From: an uncultured Phycisphaera sp.
GTDB lineage: Bacteria; Planctomycetota; Phycisphaerae; Phycisphaerales; SM1A02
Direction: 5' to 3'
NCBI GenBank assembly: GCA_937919685.1
Contig: CALFOM010000117.1
Location: 1-37,353 of the forward strand
Length of the DNA: 37,353 bases
The notes under the pieces were generated by a model that saw only the letters and a list, made by a program, of their open reading frames with translations, searched no databases and was not told the origin of the DNA. Shown piece by piece: positions 21,115 to 31,149 of the stretch. The translations under genes were made by a program, and so were the position numbers. Each line of letters begins with the position of its first letter. Position 1 is the stretch's first letter.

Positions 21115-21212
21115 TTGGAGTTGAGCGTACCACGGGCTCGGCCGCCCCTGTCGGGAACGATCCTCTATTCTTCACAGCCTCCCTTTTTATCCCCCGAAAC
21201 AGCCCTGCCTCA

Positions 21213-22067
21213 ATGCCGACCCGACTACTTGCCATCGATCTGGACGGCACCTTGCTCACCCGTGACGGGGTGTCCAGAGTGGATCGTGAGGCCATCGAGC
21301 GGGCGCGGGCCGCGGGCATGGAGATCGTCGTGGCGACGGGGCGGGCGTGGTCGGAATCGCTCGAGGCACTGCAGGCCATCGACGCGACCGGGGTCATGAT
21401 CGCAGCCGGAGGCGCGATTCTCCACGATGCCCAGAGCGGCCGCACGCTCGAACGCAGCATCGTGCATCCGGAGGTCATTGAGTCCGTCACCCGAAGTCTG
21501 CGTCGGCATGGCCATGTGGTGCATCTGCTTCAGGATGCGCCCCGGGCGGGATGCGACTACTGGATGATCGGGAGCGACCCGGTGAGCGAAGCCACACGAT
21601 GGTGGTTCGAACGGCATGGCGTCGAGGCTCGATGGGCGGAGACCATGGACCAAGTTGAGTCCCTTGAGAACACCGTCCGGGTCGGCACGACCGCACTCGG
21701 TTCTGAACTCGCCCATATCGTCGATGAGATTCGGGAGGATCTCGGAGACCGGGTCGTGCTCCAGTCGTGGAGTGCGGTGGTCGAATCCGAGATCAGCGGC
21801 GGGAGCATCCACCTGCTCGAAGCCTTCGATCCGACCGTCGACAAATGGACGATGCTGAGCGGGCTGGCTCATCGGCGGGGCATCCCGATCGAAGCCGTCG
21901 CGGCCATCGGTGATGGACTCAACGATGTCGGGATGATCCAGGGGGCTGGCATCGGCATCGCGATGGGGGGGGCCGACCAGCGGGTGGTCGCAGTATCGAA
22001 TCGCCGCACCGGCCCACTTGGATCGGGTGTGGGGGAAGCGATCAACCGGCTCCTCGAAGAGGGATGA
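21213..22067 (+). CDS. Cof-type HAD-superfamily phosphatase
   Basis: The proposed product has 284 residues from ATG 21213. The ORF can be extended to 21042, but that part covers the divergent intergenic region and the start of the opposite gene. HAD motif I is AIDLDGTLL (nucleophile Asp9, acid Asp11), motif II the Thr of VATGRAWSE, motif III the Lys of PTVDKW, and motif IV IGDGLNDVGM. The large cap domain between motifs II and III is typical of Cof/YbjI-type enzymes, which remove phosphate from sugar phosphates, nucleotides or cofactors. The substrate cannot be predicted. The stop overlaps the start of the following 1131-residue protein as ATGA, so a shared role is possible. Confidence 0.9.
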   Translation: MPTRLLAIDLDGTLLTRDGVSRVDREAIERARAAGMEIVVATGRAWSESLEALQAIDATGVMIAAGGAILHDAQSGRTLERSIVHPEVIESVTRSLRRHGHVVHLLQDAPRAGCDYWMIGSDPVSEATRWWFERHGVEARWAETMDQVESLENTVRVGTTALGSELAHIVDEIREDLGDRVVLQSWSAVVESEISGGSIHLLEAFDPTVDKWTMLSGLAHRRGIPIEAVAAIGDGLNDVGMIQGAGIGIAMGGADQRVVAVSNRRTGPLGSGVGEAINRLLEEG

Positions 22068-25000
22068 ATCGAGTTCTTTCAGACTCCTCGTGGTTCATCC
22101 ACCAGCGGACCGCTTCAGACTTGTACAATCGCTCCGTGCTCGAAGCTTCACGACGCTCGCCGATCGTCGATGCCGAGGTATTCGGTCTCGCCGAAGGGCG
22201 CGCGCTCATGGATGCCGCGGCCGTGGTCCTGAAGGGCGGACTGGAATCGGAGATCGATGTCGCCGGACTGCTCGTGGGTGTCGGCGGGGATTTCGATCGA
22301 TTGCTCGCCGCCGCGGACGACCCCGCGATCGCCAGAGTCCTGCACCGTCATCGGTTCGCCTTTCTGGCGCGAAGAAGTCCGGAACGCCGTCTGGTCGAGG
22401 CCGGGAGACTTGCGATTCGAGGCGCGGCCCTCGCGGTGATTGACACTCGGGAGATTCCGCGAGCCGTCTCTGCAATCGGAAGAGGTGGCGACGCGGCTCG
22501 TCGCGGACTGGTGGTGATCGCGATCGACGATCCCGAGGCGGCATCCGGAACGCCCGGACGCTCCTTGTTCGCGGGATTGGACATTCCGGTTCTGGAAGTC
22601 GGAAATCTCGACGATCTCCGACTGAAGATCGAACATGCCGCAAGATTGGCGGACGCCTCCGACGGTCCCGCTGCAATCATCATTGATGCATCCCTCTTCC
22701 GAGGCGCGGCGACGATTTCGGTTCGGGCCAATCGGGTGGTCGAGACCGTCGACACCGCCGCGGCGCTTCGGCGTCGACGGAGCCCACGTTTTGCGGCCGA
22801 CCGGGATCTTGAGCGGCTTGGACGCCGTCTTGAACTCGATGTCGCGGTCGCGATGCCGAGCCCGGGCGAGCGGGAGACACTGGGAATCATCGCGACCGGG
22901 CTCGCCTCGACGTCGGTCCGGCACATACTCGAGGAGACGAGGCTCACCGGTCGAATTCCCGCGGTCCATGTTGGGTTGGTTCATCCCCTTGATCCCGCCC
23001 TGATCGAGCGGCTGCTGACGCGAACACGCAAAGTGCTGGTGGTCGAGACCCGTCCGGGACTCTTGGCCGCTCCGGTCATCGAGATCGCCGAACGACTTCG
23101 ACGACGCGGCGAGACCGTGGCACAGGTGGCCTGGCGGCAGGTGCCAGGCCCCGGGGATTCCGTCATCGAACCTGGCGATGCCGGTCGACCTTCAAGACTG
23201 ATTCACAAGCTTCGAGATCTGCTTCTGGAGATGCGACCGACGTTGGAACTCTCCGATCGAGTGAATATGGAGATCGGCGATGTCGACGAGCAACCGTCCA
23301 TTCCACCTCGTCCGGGGCAAGTCGGGAGAGGACTGCTCCAGGCGGTGCGGAGGGCCGCGGTCTCCGCGGATCGAACCCTTCGACGAATCGAGGACGACAC
23401 CACCGAGCCGATGGCCCTCGCCATCAACGGTCGTCCGCCGGCCGGATTCTCGGGTCGGGTGATCGCGGTGGAGATCGTCGAGCGGCGGCGACTTCTGGAA
23501 GAAGCGGTTCTCCTCGCTGCCGGACGGGATGTCGGACGTCCTTGGATCACCCTCATCGCGGACGAGGGCTGGAACGACGAGTTGGATGCAGCACGTCTTC
23601 TCACCGCGGCGATTCCGACCGCGGGCGAGAACCCGGCGAGGGTTCAAGTACTGGAGATTGAAGACGACGCTTCTCTACGACGAGGGATCGAGGCAGCTGC
23701 TCGCGCGACCTACCCTTCCCTGCTGGTGGTGCGAAGACGGGAGATTACTTCGGTTCTAGATCCGGACGAGATCGATCGGCTCGGGTATGCCCCGTTGGTT
23801 CGAGTCAAAACGCGGATCGATGACGCGTGCGGTGTGCGACCTTCGGGCGAACCGACGGTCGATCCTTCCCTTCCTCGTCCCGACGACGTGACCGCTCGAT
23901 ACCGATTTGAACCGATCCGGAGTCGATTCAAGAGATCCTTCGTGCTACGGGTGGGTCGATTACTTGAGATCTCGGAACTCGTTCGGCAGCGAAATCCGCT
24001 CCCCGCCATTCCTGTTCCGCCGGAGCTCGGAATCGTAGCGCCAACACCACGCCACCGGGGAAGCGGGCGATGGCGTGTTCACATCGCGGGGGTTCGCGGC
24101 ACCTCGCCAGGAGGGGCAGGGAGCCTCATCTCTCTTGCCGGTAGAAACATGGGTTTCGATGTCCGCCTGGCTCATCTACCCCAGCCACTTTCGCCGGGGA
24201 GAACTGCGTGGGCCCAAGTTCTCTTCACGCGTCCGGTGCGGGAAGACGCCGCGGATACGTTGGTCCCTTCCATTCCTCAAGGCGAGGCCGACGTTCTGAT
24301 CGGGGTCGATCCACTTGAGACGCTGCGGGCGCTGGTCTCCGACCCGATGCTTCAGATTGCCACGCCCGGAAGGACCTCGATCATCGCGAATACCGAAGCA
24401 GCAACGGAGGAAGGGGCCATTTCCGCCGATCTCACCGTGATGCTCGAGGCGGAGGCGGAACGTCGATGCGGCACGTCAGGGGACCAGGTGGAGGCGTTCT
24501 CGAAACAGGTCCTTCAACAATTCGGAAATCGTCGACTGCTCGACGTCGTCTTGGTGGGCGTCGCGTTCCAGCGTGGTCTCATTCCAGTCTCCCTCGAGGC
24601 GATCACCGACGCGGCCCAGCAACTGGAGCGGGTCGGGTTCGGGAGAAGCGGTGAGGCTTTTCGTTTCGGCCGATTGCTCGCCTCCCGACCGCTCAACCAA
24701 CGCGTGTCAAAATTGCCCGGCGTCGAGCCGATCAGTCGCCGTCGCCGCGAGATCGTCCTAGAGACGCGGCTTCATCGGGGCGCGACCTCCGCGATCTGGC
24801 TCGATGAGCGTATCGGCCGATTCCTAGAAACGGTTCCTGGATTGCTTGAGACCGAAGCCGGTCGGATTGCCTTCGACGACGCCCAGCTCGCGGTGGCCAG
24901 TCTCTTCCGACGTGGCGGAAGCTCGCTGGTCGACGAGTACCTCGCCCGTGTGGAGCGGCTCTACCTCGCTGATCGAGGCGAGACCGGACGGGAACTCACG

Positions 25001-25459
25001 CGACTCGCGATCCTGCCTCTCGGAGAAGCGATGCTTGCACGCGATCTCTTCGCGCTGGCGGTGGCGGCGACAAGCCTTGATCACCGACGTCGATTGCGCC
25101 GGAGACTCGGGGTTCGAAGGGCACGAGGGGATCGATTGGAGAGGGTCTATCTGGTCCGAATCGACATCGTCGCCTTCGATCGACGCATGCGGGCGGAGAT
25201 ACCGATTCGCGACTGGCTGCTTCCGATCGTTGCTCGGATCGGAAGATTCGTTCCCGAGTCGCGTCGAGGCGATCGCGAATCCCGGGCGAGACGACTTGCG
25301 ATCGAGTCGGGGATCGATCTCGCGATGACGCAGAGCGGCGACTCCAAGGCTTATGGGCGATGGTGTTCCGTCCTCCGAAGCTGGCATGATCTGGCGACCG
25401 ATGGTCGACTTCACGAGACGCCGGTCTCGGTGCTCGCGTCGGCGTCGACGGCCGATTGA
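22064..25459 (+). CDS. Cysteine-poor relative of fused indolepyruvate:ferredoxin oxidoreductase
   Basis: The protein has 1131 residues, close to the roughly 1150 of bacterial fused indolepyruvate:ferredoxin oxidoreductases. Visible parts in that family's order are as follows. Residues 50-250 resemble the pyrimidine-binding domain (VVIAIDDPEAAS, LDIPVLEVGNLDDL). Near 295-345 is a transketolase-C-like segment (VGLVHPLDPALIERLL, RKVLVVETRPG). About 455-590 holds a reduced equivalent of the TPP domain. About 665-870 is a gamma-like domain (VHIAGVRGTSPGGAGSL, IPQGEADVLIGVDPLETLRA, VAFQRGLIPVSLEAI). About 950-1090 resembles the C-terminal DUF6537 region (DEYLARVERLYLADRGE). I see no TPP motif GDG(S/T)..N and only three cysteines in the whole protein, so the usual [4Fe-4S] sites are gone. 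It overlaps the HAD gene (ATGA). The homology is my reading of motifs, firmest in the C-terminal half; the function is unknown. Confidence 0.65.
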   Translation: MNRVLSDSSWFIHQRTASDLYNRSVLEASRRSPIVDAEVFGLAEGRALMDAAAVVLKGGLESEIDVAGLLVGVGGDFDRLLAAADDPAIARVLHRHRFAFLARRSPERRLVEAGRLAIRGAALAVIDTREIPRAVSAIGRGGDAARRGLVVIAIDDPEAASGTPGRSLFAGLDIPVLEVGNLDDLRLKIEHAARLADASDGPAAIIIDASLFRGAATISVRANRVVETVDTAAALRRRRSPRFAADRDLERLGRRLELDVAVAMPSPGERETLGIIATGLASTSVRHILEETRLTGRIPAVHVGLVHPLDPALIERLLTRTRKVLVVETRPGLLAAPVIEIAERLRRRGETVAQVAWRQVPGPGDSVIEPGDAGRPSRLIHKLRDLLLEMRPTLELSDRVNMEIGDVDEQPSIPPRPGQVGRGLLQAVRRAAVSADRTLRRIEDDTTEPMALAINGRPPAGFSGRVIAVEIVERRRLLEEAVLLAAGRDVGRPWITLIADEGWNDELDAARLLTAAIPTAGENPARVQVLEIEDDASLRRGIEAAARATYPSLLVVRRREITSVLDPDEIDRLGYAPLVRVKTRIDDACGVRPSGEPTVDPSLPRPDDVTARYRFEPIRSRFKRSFVLRVGRLLEISELVRQRNPLPAIPVPPELGIVAPTPRHRGSGRWRVHIAGVRGTSPGGAGSLISLAGRNMGFDVRLAHLPQPLSPGRTAWAQVLFTRPVREDAADTLVPSIPQGEADVLIGVDPLETLRALVSDPMLQIATPGRTSIIANTEAATEEGAISADLTVMLEAEAERRCGTSGDQVEAFSKQVLQQFGNRRLLDVVLVGVAFQRGLIPVSLEAITDAAQQLERVGFGRSGEAFRFGRLLASRPLNQRVSKLPGVEPISRRRREIVLETRLHRGATSAIWLDERIGRFLETVPGLLETEAGRIAFDDAQLAVASLFRRGGSSLVDEYLARVERLYLADRGETGRELTRLAILPLGEAMLARDLFALAVAATSLDHRRRLRRRLGVRRARGDRLERVYLVRIDIVAFDRRMRAEIPIRDWLLPIVARIGRFVPESRRGDRESRARRLAIESGIDLAMTQSGDSKAYGRWCSVLRSWHDLATDGRLHETPVSVLASASTAD

Positions 25460-25460
25460 A

Positions 25461-26651
25461 TCAGTCGTGAGCGACGGGATTCGCGCCGGACGCACGTCGC
25501 TCGTGGCGGAGTTGTCCGCAGGCCGCTGCGATGTCGCGGCCTCGGCTCGCCCGGATGTGGGCGTTGATTCCTCGATGCCTGAGTTCTTCCTGAAAACGTC
25601 GAACATCATCGGTGGCAGGCCGACGGAAGGGGAGTCCTGCGACCTCGTTGTATCGGATGAGGTTGATGTTGCATCGCAGAGACTTCGCGTGCGATGCCAG
25701 TTCTCGGGCATGCTCGACCCCGTCGTTGAATCCGCCGAGCAGGATGTACTCGATGGTGATCTCCCGTCCGGATCTCTTGAAATACTCTTGGCAAGAATCG
25801 AGGAGTTCCGGGACCGTCGAGTACTGCGCCCAGGGAATGATCTCGCGGCGAAGTTCGTCGTTGGGTGCATGCAGGCTCAAGGCGAGCGTGACCGGCAGGT
25901 CGAAGGTCGCGAAACGACGAATCGCTGCTGGAAGGCCGACGGTCGAGACGGTGATTCGACGGGCGGAGATACCGAGGCCCCATGGTGCGTGGATGCTTCT
26001 GATCGCATCGGTGACAGCAGTGAAATTCGCCAGCGGTTCGCCCATCCCCATGAAGACCACGTTGCTGAGTCGTCCGCCGTCGGGGAGGCGTCCGAGTCGC
26101 CAAGCCTGCTCCACGATTCTGCCGCGGGAAAGGTTGCCATCGAGACCGCCGAGCCCGCTGGCGCAGAAGCGGCAGCCGACCGGGCAACCGACCTGGCTCG
26201 AGAGGCAGCCGGTTCGACGATTCTCGGTCGGGATCATCACGCATTCGGTCTGCCAAGAGGGCTCGTTGCCCAGAACCGGAAGCGAGCCTTGAATCGGGGC
26301 AGCGCCCGGCTCGGGCCAGCCGAGGAGGATCTTGCTGGTGCCATCGGACGCGATCGGATGGGCGAGTTCGATGCCTTCTCCGAAACGAAGATGTTCCGAG
26401 AGGAGTTCCCGGCCTCGCTTCGACACGTCGGACATCGCCGCAGGGTCCAGAACGCCACGTTCGTAGACCCACTTCAGGACCTGGTCACCGAGGTACACCG
26501 GGAGATCGTGTTCGACCGCCCAGTCGCCCATCGACTCGGGGTCATGATCGAAGATGCTGGGTCTTGCCACCTGCCGAGGGATCATGTCTTCAATGTCCTC
26601 AACATTCTCATTGTCCTCACTCTCAGGATGTCCCGTGTTTCGATCGGTCAA
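25461..26651 (-). CDS. rlmN: 23S rRNA (A2503-C2) / tRNA (A37-C2) methyltransferase
   Basis: RlmN is a radical-SAM enzyme that methylates C2 of A2503 in 23S rRNA and A37 in some tRNAs. The protein has 396 residues. The cluster motif CPVGCRFC gives Cys156, Cys160 and Cys163. VVFMGMGEPL, LALSLHAPND and IEYILLGGFND follow. The methyl-carrying cysteine of the family is probably Cys378 (AACGQL). The start is TTG 26651, overlapping the ispH stop as TTGA; an in-frame ATG at residue 23 is an alternative. Residues 10-22 are acidic, encoded by an imperfect GAGGAC-rich repeat, and unconserved. The gene converges with the oxidoreductase-like gene, with one base between the two stop codons. Confidence 0.95.
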   Translation of the reverse strand: MTDRNTGHPESEDNENVEDIEDMIPRQVARPSIFDHDPESMGDWAVEHDLPVYLGDQVLKWVYERGVLDPAAMSDVSKRGRELLSEHLRFGEGIELAHPIASDGTSKILLGWPEPGAAPIQGSLPVLGNEPSWQTECVMIPTENRRTGCLSSQVGCPVGCRFCASGLGGLDGNLSRGRIVEQAWRLGRLPDGGRLSNVVFMGMGEPLANFTAVTDAIRSIHAPWGLGISARRITVSTVGLPAAIRRFATFDLPVTLALSLHAPNDELRREIIPWAQYSTVPELLDSCQEYFKRSGREITIEYILLGGFNDGVEHARELASHAKSLRCNINLIRYNEVAGLPFRRPATDDVRRFQEELRHRGINAHIRASRGRDIAAACGQLRHERRASGANPVAHD

Positions 26652-27779: not shown

Positions 27780-27816
27780 CCGCGGTTCGTGGATTCGAAC
27801 CACCTCGTAATCGCGG
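27780..27816. repeat. Imperfect hairpin between ispH and hpnC
   Basis: Outer arms ccgcg (27780-27784) and cgcgg (27812-27816) enclose an inner near-palindrome gtggattcgaaccac (27789-27803). It sits in the divergent ispH/hpnC gap. The inner part resembles a tRNA T-loop, but no cloverleaf can be built around it. It may be a regulator site or an mRNA leader structure. Confidence 0.4.
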
Positions 27817-27887
27817 TTGACGGCCCGCAAAGGGGGCGAACCCGGCTACACTCGGGGATCTACGGCGATCCCGCCGGGAACTTGCTG

Positions 27888-28874
27888 ATGGCCGACCGAC
27901 GTATCCATGAAGATCTTCTTCTCAACGGCCCCGACGCAGACCCGTCGTCTTGGTCGGCGACTACCGTGTCCGCAGCTCGAGATCGGTGCCGGCGTCTGGC
28001 ATCCTCGCGCCGCGAAAACTTCTCGGTGCTCACCCGACTCGTCCCCGCCGATGTGCGTGACGACTTCGCGGCGGTCTACGCGTTCTGCCGGACCGCGGAC
28101 GATCTCGGCGATGAGATCGGCGACCCCCACCGATCGCTCGAACTTCTGGACTGGTGGAGGTCGGAGGTCGATGCCGCCTGGGAGGGCAACCCGAGGCATT
28201 GGGTGTTTCGAGCGTTGCAGCCGACCATCGAGCGCTTCGATCTGGAGCAGGGGCCGTTCCTCGGCCTGATCTCCGCGTTCGAACAGGATCAGACCGTCAC
28301 GCGCTACGAGACTTGGGAACAATTGATCGACTACTGTCGGCGCAGCGCGGACCCCGTGGGCCGACTGGTGTTGAAACTCCTCGATGAACCGGGGTCGCCG
28401 GAGCAGTTGGAACGATCCGATGCGATCTGCACCGCGCTCCAATTGACGAATCACTGGCAGGATCTTCGTCGAGACCTGCTTGATCGAGACCGGATCTACA
28501 TTCCCACGGAGATGATCGAGATCGAGGACTTCGAGCGTCGATTCCGGGTCACCGCAAAGCAGGGCTGGGCGTCGGATGATCGATTTCTCGAAGAGTCGCG
28601 GCGACTGGTTCGAGCCTGCGTGGATCGAACCTGGCCGTTGTACACCTTCGGATCGGAACTCTCTGGTCTGCTTGGGCCTCGAGCGGCACCCGTCATCGAG
28701 GTGCTCGGCGGTGGCGGCGCAAGTGTGCTGCGGCGGATCGAAGACTGGGACTACGAGACGACCCTGAATCGACCGACCCTCGGATTGACGGGCAAGCTGA
28801 AGATCCTCGCGCGGGCCTGGTTCACAACCCGAAGTTCGCGGCGGACCGTCTCGTCCCGGGAGGCGGCGTCATGA
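27888..28874 (+). CDS. hpnC: Squalene synthase HpnC (hydroxysqualene synthase)
   Basis: HpnC converts presqualene diphosphate to hydroxysqualene in the bacterial three-enzyme route to squalene. From ATG 27888 the product has 328 residues. ORF extension to 27789 crosses the intergenic hairpin and is not conserved. The first metal-binding motif is AFCRTADDLGDEIGD (acidic pairs at about 71-77), and the second is QLTNHWQDLRRDLLDRDRIYIP, where HpnC proteins typically have a QLTNFWQDV-like sequence. The family call versus HpnD rests on these motifs and on gene order. The stop overlaps the hpnD start as ATGA. A hairpin-forming sequence lies about 75 bases upstream. Confidence 0.93.
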   Translation: MADRRIHEDLLLNGPDADPSSWSATTVSAARDRCRRLASSRRENFSVLTRLVPADVRDDFAAVYAFCRTADDLGDEIGDPHRSLELLDWWRSEVDAAWEGNPRHWVFRALQPTIERFDLEQGPFLGLISAFEQDQTVTRYETWEQLIDYCRRSADPVGRLVLKLLDEPGSPEQLERSDAICTALQLTNHWQDLRRDLLDRDRIYIPTEMIEIEDFERRFRVTAKQGWASDDRFLEESRRLVRACVDRTWPLYTFGSELSGLLGPRAAPVIEVLGGGGASVLRRIEDWDYETTLNRPTLGLTGKLKILARAWFTTRSSRRTVSSREAAS

Positions 28875-29755
28875 TGACGATGGATGCCCGGCTCACGGAG
28901 GCGTACGAGGATTGCGGTCGCATCGTCCGGCATCGGGCGAAGAACTTCTGGTACGGCCTCAGACTCACGCCGGAGCCTCGACGATCTTCGCTTTACGCGA
29001 TCTATGCGTGGATGCGACTGGTGGATGATCTGGCGGACGAGCCGAGTGTCGCGGTCGATTCGCGACGGTCCGGACTCGTCGCGTTTCGATCAAGGACGCG
29101 GGCTGCGTTCGGTGGCGAGGTCGGGGGGCCCGAGACGATCTGGCGAGCGTTCACCGATACCGTCGAGCGGTATGAATTGTCCATCGAACCTTTCGAGGCG
29201 ATGATCGACGGGCAGGAATCCGACCTCGATTGGACCCGGTGTCCAGATCGAGCGACGCTCGAACGTTTCTGCTGGCAGGCGGCCTCGACGGTCGGGCTGA
29301 TCTGCGTCCGAATCTGGGGTCACGATGGCGATCCCGAGATCGAGCGAATGGCCGCTGACCGGGGAAAGGCGCTCCAGTTGACCAATATTCTCCGCGATCT
29401 TCGCGAGGATTACGAACGCCAGCGGGTCTACCTTCCCGCCGACGAACTCGAAGCCGAGGGCCTTTCGATCGAAGAATTGCTGGCCTGGCGGGAGCCGGCT
29501 CGATGTCGACGTTTCCTCGAAGCGCAGATCGAGCACGCTGCCGCGTTCTACCGCCGTTCCAGCGGGCTCGAAAAACACATTTCCAGTGAATGCAGGGCGA
29601 CCAGTTGGGCAATGACCGAGATCTACCGTGGCCTGCTCGACCGCATTGCCCGTGATCCGCGTCGGGTGGTGAAGGAACGCGTGAGACTGGGGTCGATGCG
29701 AAAAATGTCGATCGCATGGCGAGCGAAACGGCTCGTCCGGAGCGGTGCCTCATGA
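28871..29755 (+). CDS. hpnD: Presqualene diphosphate synthase HpnD
   Basis: HpnD condenses two farnesyl diphosphates to presqualene diphosphate. The protein has 294 residues. The first Asp-rich motif is MRLVDDLADE (about 48-57). The second is LQLTNILRDLREDYERQRVYLP, a good match to phytoene/presqualene synthases. The start ATGATG overlaps the hpnC stop. ATG 28871 is used, although the second ATG three bases later would serve as well. It is coupled to hpnE downstream by ATGA. Phytoene synthase is the alternative by sequence alone, but the HpnC and HpnE neighbours favour squalene. Confidence 0.94.
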   Translation: MMTMDARLTEAYEDCGRIVRHRAKNFWYGLRLTPEPRRSSLYAIYAWMRLVDDLADEPSVAVDSRRSGLVAFRSRTRAAFGGEVGGPETIWRAFTDTVERYELSIEPFEAMIDGQESDLDWTRCPDRATLERFCWQAASTVGLICVRIWGHDGDPEIERMAADRGKALQLTNILRDLREDYERQRVYLPADELEAEGLSIEELLAWREPARCRRFLEAQIEHAAAFYRRSSGLEKHISSECRATSWAMTEIYRGLLDRIARDPRRVVKERVRLGSMRKMSIAWRAKRLVRSGAS

Positions 29756-31149
29756 GGCGTGCAGTCGTCATCGGTGGCGGGGTCGCGGGAATCGCGGCGT
29801 CGATCCGGCTCGCGGAGGCGGGGTGGAAGCCCATTCTCCTTGAGACCCGAGGAAAACTAGGCGGCCGCGCGACAAGTTTCGATGATCCGCGATCAGGCCG
29901 GGTACTCGACAACTGCCAACACGTCGTGATGGGCTGTTGTTCGAACATCATGGATCTCTATCAGCGGCTCGGCGTCGCCGATCGGATTGAATGGCATCCC
30001 GAGACCTGGTGGGCGAATCCACCGCGGCGGCCAGATCGGCTCCGTGCGTCACGTTTGCCTGCGCCAGGCCAGTTCGCCCCCGCATTCCTACGGATGAGGC
30101 TTCTCTCGACGGACACCAAAATCCTGATCGGGCAGGCGATGCTGCGGCTGATCCGGATGGGTTTTGCAGGGCGAATGGACTGGGCGAATCGTCCGTTCTC
30201 GGAGTTCCTTCTCGAGACCGGACAGTCTGAAGATGCGCGGCGGCTTTTCTGGGATCCAGTAGTCATCAGCGCCTGTAATCTTCCCTGTCATGAGGTGGCA
30301 GGAAATCACGCCATGCAGGTCTTTCAGGAGAGTTTCCTGGCTGGAGGCTGGCAGGCAACAATGGGACTTGCAACCTGCGATCTCCGTGCTCTCTACGATC
30401 CCGCGATCACCGCCGTGGAGGCGGCAGGTGGGGTGGTTCGCCTCGGAAACAGCGTGCGAGGAATCGCCTTCGACGGCATTCGCGCGAACGGCGTGGTCAC
30501 CGACGAGGGGCTCATTTCTGCCGCCGCCATCGTGAGTACCGTTCCTCCCGATCGGCTGGCGAAACTCGTCTCCAGTCCGATGAAGGCCGCCGACCCCCGA
30601 CTGGTTGATCTCCATCGATTCGAGCACAGCCCGATTCTTGGAGTGCATCTGTTCTTCGAGTCTCCCGTGCTCGTCGATGACGTGCGAACCTATCCGCACC
30701 TCGTCCTCCCGGGCAGAGCAACGCACTGGTTCTTCAACAAGGGGCGGGATGAATCCGGCCTGCATCACATTCATGCGGTGATCAGTGCCGCCAAGGACTG
30801 GATGGATCTCGACGAATCGGCCATCGCAGCCCGAGTGCTCGAGGATCTTCATTGGGCAATGCCGGGCAGTCGAGGACTCAAGCCCGTCGAGGTTCGCAGC
30901 GTGAAGGAGAAACGAGCCACGTTCCGAGCATGCCCGGGCATCGATTCGATTCGCCCTTCGGCGAGGCCCGGTGGATTCGGGGTCCCGAATCTGTTCCTCG
31001 CCGGCGATTGGTGTGACACCGGCTGGCCTGCCACGATGGAAGGCGCCGCCCGAAGTGGCTACGAGGCGGCAGCGGCGGTGACGGGCGTCGGCGGCGTGAT
31101 CGGGGACGTTCCGATCGGTTCGCTCGCTCGCTGGATGGGCCTTCGATGA
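29752..31149 (+). CDS. hpnE: Hydroxysqualene dehydroxylase HpnE (FAD-dependent)
   Basis: HpnE reduces hydroxysqualene to squalene. From ATG 29752, overlapping the hpnD stop as ATGA, the product has 465 residues. The FAD-binding Rossmann motif VVIGGGVAGIAASIRLAEAG is at the N-terminus, followed by GKLGGRATSF, typical of amine-oxidase/phytoene-desaturase proteins. The segment CQHVVMGCC is typical of HpnE. Near the C-terminus, NLFLAGDWCDTGWPATMEGA is the second FAD-contact motif with the catalytic-end signature. Length and order match hpnC-hpnD-hpnE clusters. No squalene-hopene cyclase is in the window, so the fate of the squalene (hopanoid, sterol or C30 carotenoid) is not shown. Confidence 0.94.
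   Translation: MRRAVVIGGGVAGIAASIRLAEAGWKPILLETRGKLGGRATSFDDPRSGRVLDNCQHVVMGCCSNIMDLYQRLGVADRIEWHPETWWANPPRRPDRLRASRLPAPGQFAPAFLRMRLLSTDTKILIGQAMLRLIRMGFAGRMDWANRPFSEFLLETGQSEDARRLFWDPVVISACNLPCHEVAGNHAMQVFQESFLAGGWQATMGLATCDLRALYDPAITAVEAAGGVVRLGNSVRGIAFDGIRANGVVTDEGLISAAAIVSTVPPDRLAKLVSSPMKAADPRLVDLHRFEHSPILGVHLFFESPVLVDDVRTYPHLVLPGRATHWFFNKGRDESGLHHIHAVISAAKDWMDLDESAIAARVLEDLHWAMPGSRGLKPVEVRSVKEKRATFRACPGIDSIRPSARPGGFGVPNLFLAGDWCDTGWPATMEGAARSGYEAAAAVTGVGGVIGDVPIGSLARWMGLR

Follow-up and report, generated by a model that had tools for sequence, protein, structure and literature searches.

The 2-oxoacid:ferredoxin oxidoreductase (OFOR) class is defined by TPP and Fe-S chemistry. What, then, is the role of a protein that keeps the domain order and length of a fused indolepyruvate:ferredoxin oxidoreductase (IOR) without a TPP motif or the Fe-S ligand set? 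This question is raised by a gene of an uncultured Phycisphaera sp., located on contig CALFOM010000117.1, where the window, the whole stretch of DNA that was analysed, comprises 37,353 nucleotides. The frame (22064..25459, + strand) is open throughout, as the initial annotation had stated, and encodes 1131 residues from an ATG at 22064 or 1107 residues from a likelier GTG at 22136. The cysteines of the 1131-residue product are confined to positions 589, 802 and 1101.

Homology and predicted fold

The relationship to fused IOR, originally proposed from motifs, proved significant by NCBIfam, hhalign and Foldseek. In NCBIfam, the window protein matches PRK13030 (fused IOR) with an E-value of 3.7e-21, the best stretch being residues 665-877, and IOR_alpha with an E-value of 1.2e-6 (residues 270-344). 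When a profile of 27 family members was compared by hhalign with one built from 16 canonical fused IORs, the two aligned over their full length (1093 columns, E 2e-103), in the order IOR alpha, gamma and DUF6537. The PRK13030 score of 74.6 bits falls below the curated NCBIfam cut-off of 816, which by itself is a weak argument because the protein of a canonical order-mate, L038, likewise falls short (468 bits). Searches with the window protein alone against Pfam and, by phmmer, against the PDB returned zero matches, both methods being too insensitive here, and a scan of a defence-system library gave no match.

An AlphaFold model derived from 49 sequences (mean pLDDT 84.8, pTM 0.78) has pyruvate:ferredoxin oxidoreductases (PFORs) as its top Foldseek matches in the PDB (E 2.7e-10, ~960 columns), with a whole-chain TM of just 0.34. 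When the gamma and C-terminal part was modelled separately, the significant matches were all OFOR proteins, chiefly gamma subunits, with TM values that reach 0.75 on the target. Both folds, OFOR and gamma, are thus matched, and the structural comparison that had been suggested speaks for the homology.

Along the + strand, the alignment places a pyrimidine-binding-like domain (residues ~41-225, 22184..22738) ahead of domain II, which is transketolase-C-like (residues ~226-400, 22739..23263), and a collapsed TPP(PP)-binding-like domain (residues ~401-560, 23264..23743). These are followed by the remnant of a ferredoxin-like domain, free of clusters (residues ~561-655, 23744..24028), the gamma (PF01558-like) domain (residues ~658-880, 24035..24703) and a C-terminal helical, DUF6537-like region (residues ~881-1131, 24704..25456), recognised by hhalign and in the model. 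The gamma domain (PF01558, domain III) is confirmed by both sequence and fold: Pfam POR was detected in 4/27 family members, and PF01558 matches exceed the cut-off in several. DUF6537 (PF20169) was found by Pfam in 9/27 members and the region is aligned by hhalign, the window protein itself having no Pfam match. Profile comparison and predicted fold therefore both support the domain order and length first ascribed to the protein.

Loss of the cofactor-binding sites

In OFORs, domains V and VI harbour the [4Fe-4S] clusters, and TPP is located between domains I and VI (PMC5020499). Canonical proteins of order-mates carry CPGCPH, HGDTGC, GDG and AMTG together with two Fe-S motifs, and the catalytic glutamate (Glu71), CPxCPH, the Gly and Asp of GDG, Asn534 and eight cysteines are present in 15/15 canonical proteins. 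A site table of 52 family copies reveals that Glu71, CPxCPH, the GDG Gly and Asp, and Asn534 are not retained, the position of the TPP-activating glutamate being occupied mostly by Ala, Pro, Gly or Ser. Among the eight Fe-S cysteines, just the Cys648 position persists (46/52 copies) and the others are lost. The PP domain is partly deleted in the cofactor-free family, and Pfam TPP_enzyme_C, found in 16/16 canonical proteins, is detected in 0/27 of its members. In the window protein, CPxCPH, HGDxGC, GDG and AMTG are deleted or replaced and Pro106 stands at the position of the catalytic glutamate, so that every TPP site and this glutamate are missing, as are at least seven of the eight Fe-S cysteines; Cys589 is the sole residue that aligns with a former ligand.

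The initial count of three cysteines in 1131 residues was exact, but the low total characterises this genus (2-4 cysteines), other family members having 5-22; the informative fact is therefore the loss of specific ligand positions. The absence of a TPP motif, which had also been noted, holds across the family. Judged from the residues retained, an intact TPP pocket appears improbable, no TPP motif being left, and the [4Fe-4S] clusters, whose absence had been suspected, would have lost their ligands except at the Cys648 position. A protein of this kind would be incapable of 2-oxoacid oxidation. Because the TPP and cluster features of the enzyme were looked for and found missing, the family is regarded as homologous to, yet outside, the fused IOR enzymes.

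Distribution and origin

Within the same family of the Phycisphaerales, the gene is present in 57/61 and 115/117 genomes in two samplings, and nearly all frames are intact across deep divergence; named relatives are Phycisphaerales and Phycisphaeraceae MAGs. Loss of the cofactor sites extends to all 52 sampled same-family copies, and order-mates possess intact canonical genes. Cofactor-free forms also occur in two further order-level lineages, f4 (with L046) and the genus g60, and families f5 and f6 are mostly canonical where the gene is present. The cofactor-free copies form one clade (UFBoot 100), which persists in a tree built without the TPP and Fd regions (support 0.99). Its attachment among planctomycete IORs is unstable, lying with L047 in the full tree and beside the canonical group once the cofactor region is omitted.

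Three fused IORs of order-mates (L047, L169 and L170) retain all eight cysteines, carry GDA, GAA or GQG where canonical proteins have GDG, and are altered in the AMTG region. This combination of kept cysteines and altered TPP motifs suggests that TPP/Mg binding was weakened before the clusters were lost. On the sequence trees these proteins appear to lie beside the stem of the cofactor-free clade, not on it, in a poorly resolved position.

Origin from a duplicated paralogue was considered and rejected: canonical and cofactor-free fused copies do not occur together in any genome examined, and the g60 gene keeps a canonical-type neighbourhood. The latter gene is divergent to a ketoacyl synthase, as are the canonical L037 and L168, and this shared neighbour renders replacement in place likelier than duplication. 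Such a divergent ketoacyl-synthase gene adjoins canonical and g60 cofactor-free genes alike (L037, L168, L048 and L171-L173).

Constraint and newly fixed residues

Since all of its catalytic motifs have been lost, the gene could be viewed as a pseudogene in decay or a leftover of drift. This explanation is refuted, and has next to no credibility, in the face of a dN/dS of 0.07-0.16 among close relatives, similar to that of the neighbouring RlmN and HAD genes and denoting purifying selection, of frames almost all intact over deep divergence, and of the newly fixed residues and conserved promoter-like element described below. The dN/dS and the near-universal intact gene likewise uphold the kept function that had been proposed. 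As the cofactor sites are lost and the gene is intact in almost all of the family, the protein must therefore have some other present job. It is probably an ancient pseudoenzyme with the OFOR fold, whose most likely role is a non-redox one in binding, regulation or scaffolding.

Within the family, the gamma domain is the most conserved, domain II ranks second and the PP domain is the least conserved. Thirty-three positions, 14 of them Arg, are newly fixed at a level of at least 90% in a state that differs from the canonical one; many are Arg or acidic, and most are in the gamma domain and domain II. Arg678 and Asp827 co-occur in 51/52 family copies, the single exception lacking both, and the corresponding canonical residues are Gly and Asn in 17/17 proteins. 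The glycine-rich GxGG turn of the gamma domain has thereby become GxRG, paired with Asp827, and the two residues may form a new salt bridge.

These substitutions, the Arg678-Asp827 pair and the strong constraint on a core gene would equally suit a new enzyme, in which the OFOR fold is re-used for a reaction independent of TPP and clusters and the gamma domain or the former substrate site probably houses the active site; TPP-independent catalysis would leave identical traces. However, no new catalytic motif or cofactor site is recognisable, Arg678 and Asp827 are not shared by the cofactor-free lineages f4 and g60, and the neighbours, mostly RNA-modification and squalene genes, provide no pathway context. 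A new enzyme is accordingly the less likely reading, albeit one with a real claim. The pseudoenzyme reading, with a non-redox binding or regulatory role, is the one that we infer for the family.

Start codon and genomic neighbourhood

A Cof-type HAD-IIB phosphatase gene (21174..22067, + strand) lies directly upstream, and the initial annotation had taken the two genes to be translationally coupled. This is rejected for the present genus. Two congeners contain an in-frame TGA in the stretch of the ATG at 22064, which overlaps the HAD stop codon, and a -10-like element, TACAAT (22124..22129, + strand), located 6 nt before the GTG start (22136..22138, + strand), is identical in eight genus-level loci; the ATG is therefore an unlikely start. 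Within the window, TAYAAT-N6-DTG before a long frame is a single case, with 0.18 expected per strand, and other family loci often have TANNNT 6-8 nt ahead of an in-frame start at the equivalent place. Translation probably begins at the GTG, 72 nt further in, under its own leaderless promoter, with a putative leaderless transcript starting at 22136. The pairing of a HAD gene with a cysteine-poor protein does recur, the HAD gene immediately preceding the cofactor-free gene on its strand in 39/47 family loci with enough flank, but it is not universal, as in eight it is inverted or not found. Adjacency is weak evidence for a putative partnership, because synteny spans many genes.

Downstream, a convergent gene for an RlmN-like radical-SAM rRNA methyltransferase (25461..26651, - strand) provides context only. 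Further along the window, a run of three genes (27789-31149), two for squalene/phytoene synthases and one for an amine-oxidase-like flavoprotein, fits HpnCDE squalene synthesis. In f4, a Rho-like ATPase gene (PF00006) is directly downstream of the cofactor-free gene (L036:5791-6969, L045:6040-7458).

Neighbours such as RlmN and RluA in f1, the adjoining Rho-like ATPase in f4 and RF1, together with an Arg content of 13.9%, a Lys content of 0.8% and a pI of 10.0 among mostly acidic neighbours, could indicate a nucleic-acid- or ribosome-associated protein. This is improbable: canonical planctomycete IORs equal the protein in net charge (+14 on average) and also have RF1 neighbours, high Arg and low Lys track GC content, and adjacency carries little information within such extended synteny. 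RNA binding deduced from Arg content was consequently set aside as weak.

A dead partner subunit, pairing with an active OFOR or a separate TPP/ferredoxin protein, is more doubtful still. Other OFOR genes do exist in some family members (G039, G015 and others), but the source genome (G000) and seven congeners contain no further PF01558 protein, no PF02775 was found in G000, and the gene itself is kept in all eight; no active partner was therefore found, and this role is unlikely in the genus. The search for a canonical paralogue that had been suggested likewise yielded none in the genome by PF01558 or PF02775. The lack of any PF02775 match in this 97% complete assembly also means that acetolactate synthase is apparently absent or was missed.

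A model for repurposing and its significance

Under the pseudoenzyme reading, a fused IOR gene in an ancestor of the Phycisphaerales would have lost TPP binding and then, in this presumed order, its two [4Fe-4S] clusters, while the overall fold was retained and the altered protein became a core gene. Domain II, the gamma domain and the C-terminal helical region, as the sites of highest constraint, would be the parts through which the protein acts, with the new Arg-Asp pair taking the place of the glycine-rich turn. A more ambitious proposal, namely a clade-wide OFOR-fold core protein devoid of TPP and Fe-S that has acquired a new biochemical function, with order-mates displaying a TPP-first, clusters-second route, is offered tentatively; the candidate function may be that of a new enzyme or of a sensor whose gamma domain recognises a ligand resembling CoA or a nucleotide.

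No description of a cofactor-free OFOR clade was found in the part of the literature covered by the search. The conversion of a 120-kDa redox enzyme into a conserved cofactor-free core protein represents a clean natural experiment in the repurposing of a large enzyme, as canonical, altered and cofactor-free forms coexist within one bacterial order. Homology-based annotation would wrongly assign an OFOR to these marine and freshwater MAGs.

Comparison with known systems

The closest known system is the fused IOR (PRK13030/PRK13029; an IorA-IorB-DUF6537 fusion), which the window protein resembles in domain order, length, full-length homology and possession of the gamma and DUF6537 regions, but from which it differs in having no TPP motif, catalytic Glu, CPxCPH or Fe-S ligand set and in scoring 74.6 bits, short of the 816-bit cut-off. 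The PFORs of Moorella and Desulfovibrio (6cip, 2c3y, 7plm) provide the best PDB fold matches over ~960 columns; however, identity is ~10%, the domains are arranged otherwise and the window protein is without cofactors. OFOR gamma subunits (3on3, 3g2e, 2raa, 8ys5) share the fold of residues ~658-880, whereas their GxGG turn is GxRG here. Finally, the split IorA/IorB proteins of G039 (L050:4120-7581, - strand) and G015 (L051:4087-7572, + strand) belong to the same superfamily but are cysteine-rich (35-37 Cys); L050 joins a TPP-type IOR alpha subunit to a GltD-like NAD(P)-binding domain in one fusion, and L051 is similar to it in length and cysteine richness.
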